Assembly (NCBI RefSeq): GCF_009192745.1
Contig: NZ_VTFV01000007.1
Location: 1 to 64,000 of the forward strand
Direction of reading: 5' to 3'
Length of the DNA stretch: 64,000 nucleotides
Origin: Arthrobacter citreus
Lineage (GTDB): Bacteria; Actinomycetota; Actinomycetes; Actinomycetales; Micrococcaceae
Shown in pieces: positions 23,546 through 27,267 of the stretch. A program made the position numbers and the translations under genes. Positions within the stretch are counted from its first letter, which is position 1. Every line of letters starts with the position of its first letter. Under the pieces are notes generated by a model. That model was not told the origin of the DNA. It did no database searches and worked only from the letters and a program-made list of their open reading frames with translations.

Positions 23546-24615
23546 GTGTACGCTCCGCTTCTCTTGGCTTCGCCGCGGATCCACTTCAGAGTCATGCGGC
23601 ACAGTACTTCTTTTAGCATTGCGGCAGCCCTCCCGTGCAGGTGGATTCTGCGTGGGGTGTAGCCGGGGTGCAGGAATTGCAAAGCGCCGTCCTGCCGTCC
23701 GAGTGAGACACACTGCCCCTGGAAGCCGCTGTTGTGAGGCGGGAGCGGTTCCCCTGCCAGCGTGCGCAGGATGTTCGACGCCGCTTCGGCGCCCATCGGC
23801 ATGGCCGTGGCACAGGTCTGCGGCAGGTATGAGTAACCGGGGTCGGTGATGACCGCGGCGTCGCCGGCTCCGAAGATCCGTTCCCGGCCCACCGCCCGCA
23901 GGCGTGAATCAACCGCCAGCCGGCCTGCGGCGTCAACCGCTAGTCCGCTTCGTGCTGCCAGGTCCGGGACCCCAAAACCCGTGCACCACAGCACTGCTGC
24001 TGCTTCGGGCAGGCGGTCCGCCTCCACCATCTCCTGCCGCACGGAAATTCCGGCGCGCTCCAGGCTGCGGAGCACACCACGCCTGGTACTGCCCGAAAAG
24101 TGTTGAATCACCGGCCCGGCGGCGTAGATCGTCACGGGGTTGTGCGGATAGGCGTGCGCCGTTTCCGCAGCCACTTCGACGGCGGTCAGTCCGCCTCCCA
24201 CCACCGCTACCGGGTCCCCGGGCTTTAGGCTTCGCAGTTTCTCCCGCGCTGGGCCGGCACCGGAGAGACAGCTCGGTGCTTCAGCTCCGGCGGGCACGGA
24301 GCCGTTTCCGCTTCCCACGGCGTAGACCAGCCAGTCGTAGTCCAGCACCGCCTCATTGGAAAGCGCGACGCGGCGCGAAGCTGCGTCGATGTTCTCCGCA
24401 ACGCCGTACACCATCTCAATGTCCGGATGCAGCAGGCTGCTGAAGGGAACGGTCGGGTCAGCCCTGGTGCCGGCGGTGAACTCATGGAGCCGGATACGCT
24501 CCGTAAAGCGCCGTTCGGGACTGACCAGACGCACCCGCACCCCCTGCCCTGCCAGCCTGTTAGCTGCCATGACGCCGGCGTAGCCGGCGCCAAGAATTAC
24601 TGCTGTCGTGTCCAC
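23494..24615 (-). CDS. FAD-dependent pyridine nucleotide oxidoreductase (NDH-2-like)
   Basis: 373 aa from the GTG at 24613-24615, chosen because AGGAGG lies about 6 nt upstream; an ATG at 24645 would add 10 residues without a ribosome site. FAD-binding GAGYAGVMAANRL, NAD(P)-binding GGGLTAVEVAAETA and the second FAD motif FGAGDAAVI are in the right order for type II NADH dehydrogenase-like enzymes. No membrane-anchor helix stands out. In actinobacteria such flavoproteins often pair with SigJ-type sigma genes, and here the reading frames overlap by 52 nt. The electron acceptor is unknown. Confidence 0.85.
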   Translation of the reverse strand: MDTTAVILGAGYAGVMAANRLAGQGVRVRLVSPERRFTERIRLHEFTAGTRADPTVPFSSLLHPDIEMVYGVAENIDAASRRVALSNEAVLDYDWLVYAVGSGNGSVPAGAEAPSCLSGAGPAREKLRSLKPGDPVAVVGGGLTAVEVAAETAHAYPHNPVTIYAAGPVIQHFSGSTRRGVLRSLERAGISVRQEMVEADRLPEAAAVLWCTGFGVPDLAARSGLAVDAAGRLAVDSRLRAVGRERIFGAGDAAVITDPGYSYLPQTCATAMPMGAEAASNILRTLAGEPLPPHNSGFQGQCVSLGRQDGALQFLHPGYTPRRIHLHGRAAAMLKEVLCRMTLKWIRGEAKRSGAYTWPAGPRMTPAPALAEA

Positions 24616-24746
24616 GGATCTTCCTCCTGCTTTTGGGTGCCGCACCGTATTTGCGGTTGCACATAAGACACCGCCGGCAGCCGTTTTGTGACAGCAGGCA
24701 CGCGGGGTTTTCAGGATCAGGCGCTCTGGCTAGGGCTTATCAGGAT

Positions 24747-24758
24747 TTTCCTAGGAAA
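24747..24758. promoter_or_regulatory. 12-bp palindrome in the CNNM operon promoter
   Basis: TTTCCTAGGAAA is a perfect palindrome ending 6 nt before TAAGCT (24765-24770), the likely -10 box. Its place in the promoter spacer suggests an operator; the regulator is unknown. Confidence 0.4.
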
Positions 24759-24764
24759 TAACCG

Positions 24765-24770
24765 TAAGCT
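24765..24770 (+). promoter_or_regulatory. -10 box of the CNNM operon
   Basis: TAAGCT lies 10 nt before the ATG of the 28-codon upstream ORF, so the mRNA would start at or within a few bases of that ATG. Confidence 0.35.
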
Positions 24771-24780
24771 CATTGCTACT

Positions 24781-24867
24781 ATGGACGACCCTTCTCATAA
24801 ACCCATGCCCTCCCCTGACCCAGATGAAGTTCTGGATGATTTGGTTCGAGGAGGGCACCCCAAGTGA
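24781..24867 (+). CDS. 28-codon upstream ORF, candidate Mg2+-responsive leader peptide
   Basis: ATG to TGA, 28 codons, ending in a GTGA overlap with the first CNNM gene. The peptide is Pro/Asp-rich: MDDPSHKPMPSPDPDEVLDD and then LVRGGHPK. Alternating Pro and acidic residues (SPDPDE) are the kind of nascent chain known from E. coli MgtL to destabilise ribosomes when Mg2+ is low. The Shine-Dalgarno of the transporter gene (GAGGAGGG, 24848-24855) lies inside this ORF, so its translation must affect the next gene. No homologue search was possible. Confidence 0.55.
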   Translation: MDDPSHKPMPSPDPDEVLDDLVRGGHPK

Positions 24868-26234
24868 ACGACTGGTATGAATGGCTGATGATCGGCGTCG
24901 GCCTTGTGCTGACGGTCGGTACCGGCCTGTTCGTTGCTTCTGAATTCGCCCTGGTCAACCTCGACCGCAGTGACCTCGAGGCCCGCCAGGCCGCCGGGGA
25001 GAAGCGTCTTGGTCCCACGATCAAGGCCCTGAAGATCACTTCCACCCATCTCTCAGGTGCCCAGCTGGGCATCACCCTGACCACCCTGCTTTCCGGTTAC
25101 ACCTTTGAGCCGGCCATCAGCTCCCTGCTGCGCGGCCCGCTCACGTCGGCAGGAGTGCCCGAAGCTTTCGTCGGCGGCACCGGAGCGGTCATCGCCATCG
25201 CGGTGGCCACCCTGCTCTCGATGATCATCGGTGAACTTGTCCCGAAGAACTTCGCCCTGGCACTCCCAAAGGCCACCGCAAAGGTGGTTGTGCCTTTCCA
25301 GGCCCTGTTCACCACCGTTTTCAAGCCCGTCATCCTGCTGTGCAACAACACCGCCAACAAGGTGATCCGCTCCTTCGGCATCGAACCGAAGGAAGAACTC
25401 TCCGGCGCCCGCAGTGCCGAGGAACTGAGCTTCCTGGTCCGCCGGTCCGCCCTGGAAGGCGTGCTGGACCAGGACCATGCCGAGCTGCTGCACCGAACCC
25501 TGCGGTTCTCCGACCACACGGCCGAAGACGTCATGACCCCGCGCGTGCGGATGGTCGGCGTCCAGGCCACGGACACTGCTGAGGACATCATCGCCATTGC
25601 CGTCTCCACCGGCTACTCCCGCTTCCCTGTCCTTGGCAGGGACTCCGATGACATCCTTGGTGTGCTGCACGTGAAGCAGGCGTTCGCCCTGCCGCTGGAC
25701 CAGCGTGCCACCACAACCGCGGCAGACGTCATGGTCCCGCCGCTGCGGGTCCCCGAATCCATGGGCGTTGACTCCCTGCTGGCCATCCTGCGTTCCCAGG
25801 GGCTGCAGATCGCTGTGGTGACCGACGAACACGGCGGAACCGCCGGCGTCGTCACCCTGGAAGACCTCGTCGAGGAAATCGTCGGCGAGCTGGAGGATGA
25901 ACACGACCGCGCGCGCGTCGGCGTCGTCCGCACCGGACGCGCGGTCACCTTCGATGCTTCCCTGCGCCCGGATGAACTGCTCGACCGTGCCGGCATTACC
26001 GTGCCGGAAGGCGAGGACTATGAAACCCTCGCCGGCTTCGTCACGCACTGCCTGGACCGGATGCCTGAACTCGGCGACGAAGTGGAGGTTGACGACGGCG
26101 TCCTGCGCGTCGAGCGCGTGGTGGGCACGCATGTCGAGCGCCTGCGCTTCACCCCCAACCCCGGTTCGGAATCACCGCGCAGCGCGCACGACCGCCTGGT
26201 CGACACCCTGACGAAGGAAGCCATCCATGAGTGA
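24864..26234 (+). CDS. CNNM/CorC-type ion transporter with CBS pair and CorC_HlyC domain
   Basis: 456 aa, GTG start. The CNNM membrane domain occupies about residues 1-200 (FVASEFALVNLDRSDLEAR, the HLSGAQLGITLTTLLSGY motif, GELVPKNFALALP). Two CBS modules follow (DVMTPRVRMVGV, then TGYSRFPVLG, then AVVTDEHGGTAGVVTLEDLVEEIVGE), then a C-terminal CorC_HlyC domain (DRAGITVPEGEDYETLAGFV). Family members move Mg2+ (often efflux) and sense ATP/Mg through the CBS pair. Upstream ORF, this gene and the second CNNM gene overlap in series. Confidence 0.93.
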   Translation: MNDWYEWLMIGVGLVLTVGTGLFVASEFALVNLDRSDLEARQAAGEKRLGPTIKALKITSTHLSGAQLGITLTTLLSGYTFEPAISSLLRGPLTSAGVPEAFVGGTGAVIAIAVATLLSMIIGELVPKNFALALPKATAKVVVPFQALFTTVFKPVILLCNNTANKVIRSFGIEPKEELSGARSAEELSFLVRRSALEGVLDQDHAELLHRTLRFSDHTAEDVMTPRVRMVGVQATDTAEDIIAIAVSTGYSRFPVLGRDSDDILGVLHVKQAFALPLDQRATTTAADVMVPPLRVPESMGVDSLLAILRSQGLQIAVVTDEHGGTAGVVTLEDLVEEIVGELEDEHDRARVGVVRTGRAVTFDASLRPDELLDRAGITVPEGEDYETLAGFVTHCLDRMPELGDEVEVDDGVLRVERVVGTHVERLRFTPNPGSESPRSAHDRLVDTLTKEAIHE

Positions 26235-27267
26235 GTACCTGCCCGGCATTATCTGGCTGTTTGTACTGCTTGCCGTCAACGCCTTCTTTGTGGGTGCCGA
26301 ATTCGCCGTCATCTCTGCCCGCCGGTCCCAGATTGAGCCCAAGGCCGCCCAAGGCAGCAAGGCAGCCAAGACCACGCTGTGGGCCATGGAACATGCCACC
26401 CTGATGCTGGCCACCAGCCAGCTGGGCATCACCGTATGTTCGCTGCTGATCCTGAACGTCTCCGAACCGGCCATCCACCACCTGCTGGAAATCCCCCTGG
26501 CCGGCACTCCACTGACTCCGGAGGCAATCAGCATCACCGCCTTCGTCGTGGCGCTGCTGCTGGTGACCTTCCTGCACGTGGTGGTAGGCGAGATGATCCC
26601 GAAGAACATCTCCTTCTCGGTGCCGACCCGTGCGGCGCTGCTGCTGGCTCCCCCGCTGGTGCTCGTGGCAAGGATCTTCAAGCCCGTGATCTGGAGCCTG
26701 AACTCCATCGCGAACGGCGTGCTGCGCCTGTTCAAGGTGGAGCCCAAGGACGAAGCGACCAGCGCCTACACCCTGGATGAAGTGGCGACGATTGTGGAGC
26801 AGTCCACCCGCGAGGGCGTCCTGGATGACACAACCGGCGCCCTGACGAACGCCTTCGAGTTCACGTCCAAGACCGTTGCCGATGTTGAAGTTCCCCTGGC
26901 CGAGATGGTGCTTGTGCCTGCTGAACCCACCCCCGCGGATATTCAGGCGGCGGTAGGCAGCCACGGCTTCTCCCGGTACATTCTGGCCGATGCGGACGGC
27001 GGGCTGACCGGCTACCTTCACCTGAAGGACGTCATGGACCTGAATACTGCGGAGAAGTTCAATGCTCCGGTTCCGGCCAAGCGGATCCGCCGCCTCGCCT
27101 CCGCGTTCCGCGGCAGCGAGCTTGAGGACGCCCTGGACACCATGCGGCGGACCGGAGCGCACGTTGCCCGCGTGTTTGACGCCGAGGGCAACACCACCGG
27201 TGTGCTCTTCCTGGAGGACATCATCGAGGAATTGGTCGGCGAAGTTCAGGACGCCACCAGCGTCTAG
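26227..27267 (+). CDS. Second CNNM-type transporter, lacking CorC_HlyC domain
   Basis: 346 aa, overlapping the first CNNM gene by 8 nt. The membrane domain is intact (FFVGAEFAVISARRSQIEP, MLATSQLGITVCSLLI, GEMIPKNISFSVPTRAALLL), followed by two CBS modules (PLAEMVLVP, GFSRYILAD, VARVFDAEGNTTGVLFLEDIIEELVGE). It stops right after the second CBS module, so the CorC_HlyC domain of its neighbour is missing. Paired long and short CNNM proteins may form a hetero-oligomer. A very stable hairpin follows 17 nt after the stop. Confidence 0.92.
   Translation: MSEYLPGIIWLFVLLAVNAFFVGAEFAVISARRSQIEPKAAQGSKAAKTTLWAMEHATLMLATSQLGITVCSLLILNVSEPAIHHLLEIPLAGTPLTPEAISITAFVVALLLVTFLHVVVGEMIPKNISFSVPTRAALLLAPPLVLVARIFKPVIWSLNSIANGVLRLFKVEPKDEATSAYTLDEVATIVEQSTREGVLDDTTGALTNAFEFTSKTVADVEVPLAEMVLVPAEPTPADIQAAVGSHGFSRYILADADGGLTGYLHLKDVMDLNTAEKFNAPVPAKRIRRLASAFRGSELEDALDTMRRTGAHVARVFDAEGNTTGVLFLEDIIEELVGEVQDATSV

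Follow-up and report, generated by a model that had tools for sequence, protein, structure and literature searches.

Leader locus

The DNA analysed here (the window) is a 64-kb stretch from Arthrobacter citreus in which a short open reading frame (ORF) occupies the space that separates a two-gene CNNM operon from a divergently oriented, minus-strand gene for a pyridine-nucleotide-disulphide oxidoreductase. The leader ORF (24781..24867, plus strand) has 28 codons from the ATG at 24781 to the TGA at 24867, encodes the peptide MDDPSHKPMPSPDPDEVLDDLVRGGHPK and is conserved at orthologous loci of many related soil bacteria. A sequence-only reading of this DNA had recognized a 28-codon ORF upstream of the CNNM gene, and such an ORF indeed exists; its beginning had been set at 24765, 16 nt ahead of the ATG and on a TAAGCT box. 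This −10-like box (TANNNT; 24765..24770, plus strand) ends 10 nt before the leader ATG. The peptide opens with the conserved acidic/proline start ATG GAC GAC CCT (MDDP, or MDDPP in most relatives; 24781..24792, plus strand), which we propose to be a ribosome-destabilizing motif. The CNNM Shine–Dalgarno sequence GGAGGG (24850..24855, plus strand) is located inside the last third of the leader ORF, and the CNNM start codon (GTG at 24864) and the leader stop codon (TGA, 24865–24867) form a GTGA overlap (24864..24867, plus strand). Both features had been read correctly from the letters, as had the MDDP, PSPDPDE and VLDD runs, all of which are found in the window peptide. In the predicted fold, a 5′ arm, TGCCCTCC (24806..24813, plus strand), pairs with the CNNM ribosome site through a 3′ arm, GGAGGGCA (24850..24857, plus strand), that contains GGAGGG, and there is covariation in relatives.

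The downstream gene (24864..26234, plus strand) encodes a CNNM/CorC-type transporter of 456 amino acids with CNNM, CBS and CorC_HlyC domains (Pfam), the nearest solved chains of which include 7m1u/7m1t and the CorC entry 4hg0. A second CNNM protein (346 amino acids, Pfam; 26227..27267, plus strand) starts within the end of the first CNNM gene. The leader is a short ORF directly 5′ of a Mg2+ transporter-family gene; going by that family, the product of 24864..26234 would transport Mg2+ and is likely a Mg2+ exporter. The window CNNM protein is 99% identical to that of Arthrobacter sp. Edens01 (L037). Within the window, 73 ATG ORFs of 10–45 codons stop on the start of an ORF of at least 120 codons; the leader alone among them has a TANNNT box 8–11 nt upstream, and it alone combines at least two acidic residues in codons 2–6 with two prolines in codons 2–12. 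The pattern ATGGAYGAYCCYYCY, built from the first five codons of the window leader, occurs a single time in the window's genome. A riboswitch was rejected, given that neither the window nor seven related loci reached the gathering score of any Rfam covariance model; at E ≤ 5, the region 24400–25100 held merely two unrelated weak matches. Three leader peptides gave no match in Pfam and NCBIfam at E ≤ 1.

Conservation of the leader

A genome scan identified 430 places with a relative of the window CNNM protein, of which the best 80 were kept; these 80 loci are consequently close relatives. The sequence-only reading had made its proposal depend on conservation in relatives, and the ORF is kept in 79 of these 80 orthologues (best 80 of 430), the exception being Rathayibacter iranicus (L100), in which no leader was recognizable. 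With the window included, 77 of 80 leaders from this set (best 80 of 430) overlap the CNNM start by 4–13 nt—8 nt in 65, 4 nt in 6, 11 nt in 4 and 13 nt in 2—so that the GTGA overlap noted previously holds in the window but is one of several overlap types in relatives, among which 8 nt is the commonest. The three remaining leaders are those of L039 (for which the script chose another start), L085 (frameshifted) and L106 (which ends 28 nt into the gene). The frameshifted leader, at approximately position 2421 in one Arthrobacter genome, ends early (MDDPLHINPRPSML); no other of the 79 leaders has clearly lost its frame. In 56 further loci tested, some from the same genomes, the leader was found in 55, and this set (55/56) includes a second CNNM copy, approximately 62% identical, that occurs in the Cryobacterium-containing family.

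Leader peptides vary from MDDPPSHMPKPLRLLTGSPATTGEGRPNV to as few as 13 residues, as in MDDPPSRRIGSHV. In the set of 110 distinct leaders, codon 2 encodes an acidic residue in 110/110 (partly by construction, through an ATGGA filter), codon 3 encodes aspartate in 103, proline in 4, histidine in 2 and glutamate in 1, and proline is encoded by codon 4 in 102 and by codon 5 in 99; the four leaders with proline at codon 3 are of the Cryobacterium-type MDPDKPSP. In assembling these leaders, L169–L174 (other families, other ORFs) were left out, L168 (MDDHP) was kept, and L213 and L214 were included on account of their MDDP start. Both the 80 orthologues and the 56 further loci were required to carry ATGGA, and the 80 orthologues also GAY-CC or CCN-GA next; the loci lost to filters of this type were only L100 of the 80 and L190 of the 56.

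Because ATGGA was required in both sets, the search was repeated blind to sequence, accepting any ATG with TANNNT 6–11 nt upstream and an ORF ending on the CNNM start. This set comprised 131 loci (the window, the 80 orthologous loci and 50 further loci; the loci of one genome may occur twice), and exactly one leader was found in 123 of them. L190 has a leader by this search. The eight loci without one are L100, the frameshifted L085 and six that have a leader but no TANNNT box (L149 among them). Codon 2 is acidic in 123/123 of the sequence-blind leaders (aspartate in 116, glutamate in 7), codon 3 in 116 (aspartate in 115 and glutamate in 1, with proline in 5 and histidine in 2), and proline stands at codon 4 in 115 and at codon 5 in 110. 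In this set, acidic and proline residues of the MgtL kind are found in the first codons of the nascent chain. The conserved part is M-D-D-P(-P), with codons 2–5 following the start, and not the PSPDPDE run emphasized earlier; the PSPDPDE/VLDD stretch was rejected as a conserved sensor, since, of the window and the 79 orthologue leaders, no others than the window and L037 have it.

Start of the message

A TANNNT box lies 6–11 nt before the ATG in 106 of the 110 distinct leaders, compared with 6.3 expected in shuffled sequence, and its spacing is narrow (10 nt in 59 leaders and 9 nt in 31). Shine–Dalgarno-like sites precede the leader in only 4/110, and the CNNM gene in 92/110 (with a slightly wider motif list). 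The fixed-distance box and the absent ribosome site suggest that the transcript is leaderless or nearly leaderless.

Selection on the peptide and proline codon choice

Changes were counted by parsimony over a tree built from 104 CNNM protein sequences, with six fragment-only loci dropped and the four MDPDKP leaders set aside for leader sites. On this tree, the numbers of changes at positions 1, 2 and 3 were 0, 0 and 18 for codon 2 (the zeros being partly due to the ATGGA filter), 2, 0 and 6 for codon 3, 2, 2 and 12 for codon 4 and 1, 2 and 24 for codon 5, compared with means of 7.1, 4.4 and 24.2 for CNNM codons. Codons 6 and 7 are looser (14, 9 and 18, and 10, 6 and 23 changes, respectively), and the 30 nt upstream of the leader show 10–48 changes per site. 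Taken together, leader codons 2–5 have 9 first- and second-position changes against a mean of 45.6 for four-codon CNNM windows, 13% of which have as few; in the worst case, with L100 and L190 each adding one change at all eight sites, codons 2–5 reach 25 changes. Given that first and second positions are nearly fixed and third positions vary, the peptide itself is selected: by this substitution pattern, the leader start behaves as conserved coding sequence, and selection reaches beyond the RNA to the amino acids.

Where codons 4 and 5 form a Pro-Pro pair, Pro4 is CCT or CCC in 96/96 leaders, whereas in the CNNM genes these two codons account for 1,052 of 2,168 proline codons and stand first in 9 of 27 Pro-Pro pairs. 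Judged against the CNNM genes, the choice of CCT/CCC at Pro4 is a feature beyond the peptide sequence. According to the available text of one study, CCC and CCU are slow and avoided as first codons of Pro-Pro pairs in Escherichia coli, cause a greater delay in diproline synthesis than CCA and CCG do in that organism, and are disfavoured in proline pairs in 13 and 11 of 15 genomes, respectively (PMC8129111). A programmed frameshift at the proline pair, which would fuse leader and CNNM protein, was rejected, as the shifted frame is closed in 99/110 leaders and open in 11.

A predicted helix over the CNNM ribosome site

In the main group of leaders, a C-rich stretch around codons 9–12 is predicted to pair with the CNNM Shine–Dalgarno sequence, either as GCCCCUC with GAGGGGC or as GCCCUCC with GGAGGGC (the window type). 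In an alignment of 57 sequences, 95.3% of cells across the six pairs are paired, compared with 49–68% when the arms are slid by 1–3 columns, and 14 cells have changed on both sides versus 4.1 in shuffles (in the covariation controls, and likewise in the Wilcoxon and Fisher values, related sequences count as independent, the tree being used only for parsimony counts). Such two-sided changes are found in two of the pairs in this alignment, a number not above that in shuffles. On average, the ribosome site is predicted to be free with a probability of 0.048, versus 0.169 with synonymous codons, and it is less accessible than the mean of the synonymous-codon controls in 71/75 leaders. Taken as a whole, the window leader folds with no unusual stability (z −0.99).

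We modelled a translating ribosome as covering 15 nt from the P-site codon, with only downstream pairing allowed. For the window, the predicted unpaired probability of the ribosome site is 0.00, rising to 0.41 with the P site at codon 6. Across 69 main-type leaders, the site stays shut with the P site at codons 1–6 (mean 0.03–0.05) and opens from codon 7 (0.29, then 0.38–0.51), and the first opening falls at P-site codons 6–9 in 60/69; the DDPP codons stand before the point at which the modelled ribosome opens the helix. The picture is weaker for 40 leaders of other types (accessibility below 0.2 in 29), and several minimal leaders have no clear Shine–Dalgarno sequence or helix. For the main group, the model predicts that the CNNM Shine–Dalgarno sequence is hidden in a helix that is opened only once a ribosome passes the DDPP codons. 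When pairing across the ribosome is allowed, site accessibility drops again past approximately codon 9 in many folds. The DPP codons at 24786–24795 and in relatives, GACCCUCC(U), may have a second RNA role as the presumed pairing partner of the site; we take them to resemble the 16S 3′ end.

Distribution and other CNNM leaders

Among the loci examined, MDDPP is confined to two families, that of the window and that of Cryobacterium; MDDHP occurs in L168, which belongs to neither. Only L206, L213 and L214 among 54 loci of other families or paralogues (L203–L256) start with M-D/E-D/E/H-P; all three belong to the window's family and start with MDDP, none with PP. The pattern ATGGAYGAYCCYCCY was found in 73/150 genomes of the family that includes Cryobacterium, the reversed control giving one match among the matches listed. 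A CNNM start lies within 250 nt on the same strand in 30/30 loci among the matches listed, and on this basis—every one of these loci precedes CNNM—we rejected a leader shared with other genes. At least three ATGGAYGAYCCYCCY matches (G134, G698 and G701) are not near a listed CNNM gene, as judged from their positions. A looser class-wide pattern matched 29/394 genomes, and of the 30 loci listed only L118 and L119 have both CNNM and leader; most others (most of L120–L141) carry a recurrent MEDPPxH stretch inside long ORFs, which accounts for most class-wide matches and presumably belongs to cytochrome P450.

Elsewhere, CNNM genes are often overlapped by other ORFs. The other CNNM pair of the window's genome (L004, G000:C3, paralogue at 1297134) has a leader ORF of its own (MDSNSRRRP; MDSNSRRRPASTAV...EAGS) that ends at its start, and ORFs before such paralogue genes in other genomes start with MDSPSRGRLDAG or MDSHSLSRP. 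In a genus with large genomes, L302, L303, L305, L307, L310 and L312 have a different conserved overlapping CNNM leader that is MDGSSCSTC-like (MDGSSGSTC in L307); leaders of this type occur in 6/7 loci of their family (f26), and L309 of the same family has MGEPPSTGR. Another Actinomycetota family has an SDSPGRREAG-like overlapping CNNM leader. Pro/His-rich leaders, for example MTTVPDQLPDDPDDEPHHPG and MSSPPGPRGGPPHHPRP, precede CNNM in other families (L216, L224 and L171), with PPHH-bearing leaders in family f55 and one EPHH leader in f5. These overlapping ORFs of other families may be related or convergent, and in DNA as G+C-rich as this such overlaps commonly arise by chance.

A proposed translation gate

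We lean towards a reading in which the leader peptide is a cis-acting translation gate on a likely Mg2+-exporting CNNM operon, of the same ribosome-abort type as MgtL and mgtQ. Transcription would begin at or a few nucleotides before the leader ATG, as the conserved box and the missing ribosome site suggest, so that ribosomes would begin on the leader without a Shine–Dalgarno sequence. Two acidic residues followed by proline, or by Pro-Pro on slow CCU/CCC codons, would predispose the short nascent chain to stalling or drop-off; destabilization by such a start is argued by analogy with MgtL, mgtQ and work on IRD. When Mg2+ is scarce, drop-off at the leader start would leave the region of codons 9–12 paired with the CNNM Shine–Dalgarno sequence and no ribosome at the overlapping stop and start, and little exporter would be made. 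When Mg2+ is plentiful, the ribosome would pass approximately codon 7 and open the helix (a geometry that the computation supports), terminate on the CNNM start and reinitiate, and the exporter would be made. Minimal leaders of approximately 13–20 codons seem to depend on coupling alone, through ribosomes that finish the leader. A stall further on, at codons 7–11 (where prolines 9 and 11 lie), would open the helix and have the opposite effect.

Mg2+ is the putative signal, by analogy with MgtL and similar leaders and from the CNNM family; proline decoding, EF-P or the general state of translation could stand in its place. In the available texts, low Mg2+ favours ribosome drop-off at the EPDP of MgtL (PMC11282234), IRD in E. 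coli is suppressed by high Mg2+ (PMC9718836), and the same sign is proposed for CorC itself, through IRD in its own N terminus (discussion of PMC12421838). The earlier suggestion of an MgtL-like acidic/proline leader at which drop-off lowers CNNM translation is in part sustained—by conservation, selection on the amino acids, putatively destabilizing codons placed before the helix and the similarity to the MgtL start—but with a motif other than PSPDPDE.

A serious rival to Mg2+ as the signal, although we consider it unlikely, is proline decoding. The leader would then sense the speed at which CCU/CCC are read (through tRNA-Pro m1G37 made by the Mg2+-dependent TrmD, EF-P or the supply of prolyl-tRNA), the acidic residues would be mere context, and slow decoding would keep the exporter off. 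The uniform CCT/CCC at Pro4 of the PP pair (96/96) speaks for this sensor, as does the avoidance of such slow first codons by E. coli in the text available (PMC8129111); TrmD–m1G37, a reported Mg2+-linked route at MgtL, and EF-P also act through MgtL proline codons, according to the accessible parts of PMC8643618 and PMC6460261. Against it, the constant element of the sequence-blind leaders is the acidic codon 2 (123/123) and not proline (115 at codon 4, 110 at codon 5), the clade of the window has a single proline at codons 4–5 (MDDPS) and some Cryobacterium leaders read MDPDKP.

Somewhat less probable again is constitutive coupling, in which nothing is sensed, a leaderless mini-ORF simply loads ribosomes onto CNNM and MDDPP is a good context for leaderless initiation. 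The near-leaderless start signal fits this, as do the minimal leaders of 13–20 codons with little beyond MDDPP and the overlap; however, codons 2–5 are constrained by amino-acid type rather than as plain nucleotides, an acidic/proline start on slow codons would be odd for efficient loading, and the main group has a helix over the ribosome site with covariation. The constraint might instead lie in the nucleotides, with ATGGAYGACCCYCC, which we take to resemble the 16S 3′ end, being an operator, a start-site DNA signal or an internal anti-Shine–Dalgarno sequence and the peptide a by-product. This would account for third positions of codons 3 and 4 that are tighter than in a typical CNNM codon (5th and 13th percentiles) and for the renewed drop in site accessibility past codon 9, with GACCCUCC(U) as the presumed partner; it is very unlikely, given that codons 2 and 5 vary freely at their third positions and that GAA in place of GAC/GAT at codon 2, as well as the MDPDKP form, preserve residue types and not bases. 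A peptide that acts in trans on the transporter as a small protein, to which the conserved N terminus could point, is scarcely credible, given a C-terminal part unconstrained in length and sequence, with some peptides as short as 13 residues, and a stop tied to the CNNM start in 77/80 leaders (best 80 of 430).

Comparison with known systems

The proposed gating mechanism would place the leader beside MgtL and mgtQ, from which it departs in start mode, coupling, target and predicted sign. Like the MDDPP leader, MgtL (mgtA of E. coli and Salmonella) is a short ORF 5′ of a Mg2+ transporter gene with an acidic/proline start (MEPDP, compared with MDDPP and MDPDKP); the start of E. coli K-12 MgtL is very like the Cryobacterium-type MDPDKPSP, and 4/4 of its proline codons are CCT/CCC (L294). 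We do not claim sequence homology between the two. MgtL sits in a long leader RNA, whereas the MDDPP leader overlaps its gene and seems to lie near the mRNA 5′ end; the former works through Rho-dependent transcription termination, whereas the latter would act on translation; and drop-off turns the importer on in MgtL but is predicted to turn the exporter off here. In the accessible text on mgtQ (Salmonella mgtC–mgtB intergenic region), this tiny ORF likewise carries acidic residues, Asp2 and Glu5, which obstruct translation of mgtQ itself and govern access to the ribosome site of the Mg2+ transporter gene that follows (PMC8092293). It differs in that impeded translation frees the mgtB ribosome site and turns the importer on, the reverse of what the MDDPP geometry predicts, and in lying in a 219-nt intergenic region, overlap with mgtB not being described in that text (PMC8092293).

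CorC-domain genes of enterobacteria offer further parallels. In the available text of PMC12421838, the YoaL leader ORF overlaps the upstream region of mgpA (yoaE), loss of its start codon lowers MgpA translation, and CorC (YbeX) contains an IRD sequence in its own N terminus; MgpA differs in having a TerC membrane domain, and that text mentions no MDDPP leader. In animals, uORFs that respond to Mg2+ tune the Mg2+ homeostasis proteins PRL-1/2 and TRPM7, perhaps through the nascent peptide in the case of PRL, as far as the available text reports (PMC11855589). This likeness is drawn without sequence comparison; the systems are eukaryotic, and PRL regulation depends on AMPK/mTORC2 in the same text (PMC11855589).

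No earlier description of an MDDPP leader was found in the published literature covered, from which subscription papers were mostly absent. It is possible, and we put this tentatively, that leaderless MDDPP mini-ORFs constitute an independently evolved class of abort peptides in which ribosome stability is the Mg2+ sensor and an exporter is gated with a sign opposite to that of MgtL; they may be a branch of a wider rule in Actinomycetota, with lineage-specific overlapping CNNM leaders each being a nascent-chain gate. To our knowledge, little is known about how Mg2+ exporter expression is controlled in bacteria outside the enterobacteria. Here, a five-residue leader start is kept across two families, is apparently leaderless and is tied to a likely exporter, and the leader is a small, directly testable device made up of two aspartate codons and one helix. 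If its dependence on Mg2+ is true, ribosome destabilization by acidic/proline nascent chains would have been put to use in Mg2+ homeostasis on more than one occasion, with import and export controlled in opposite directions.
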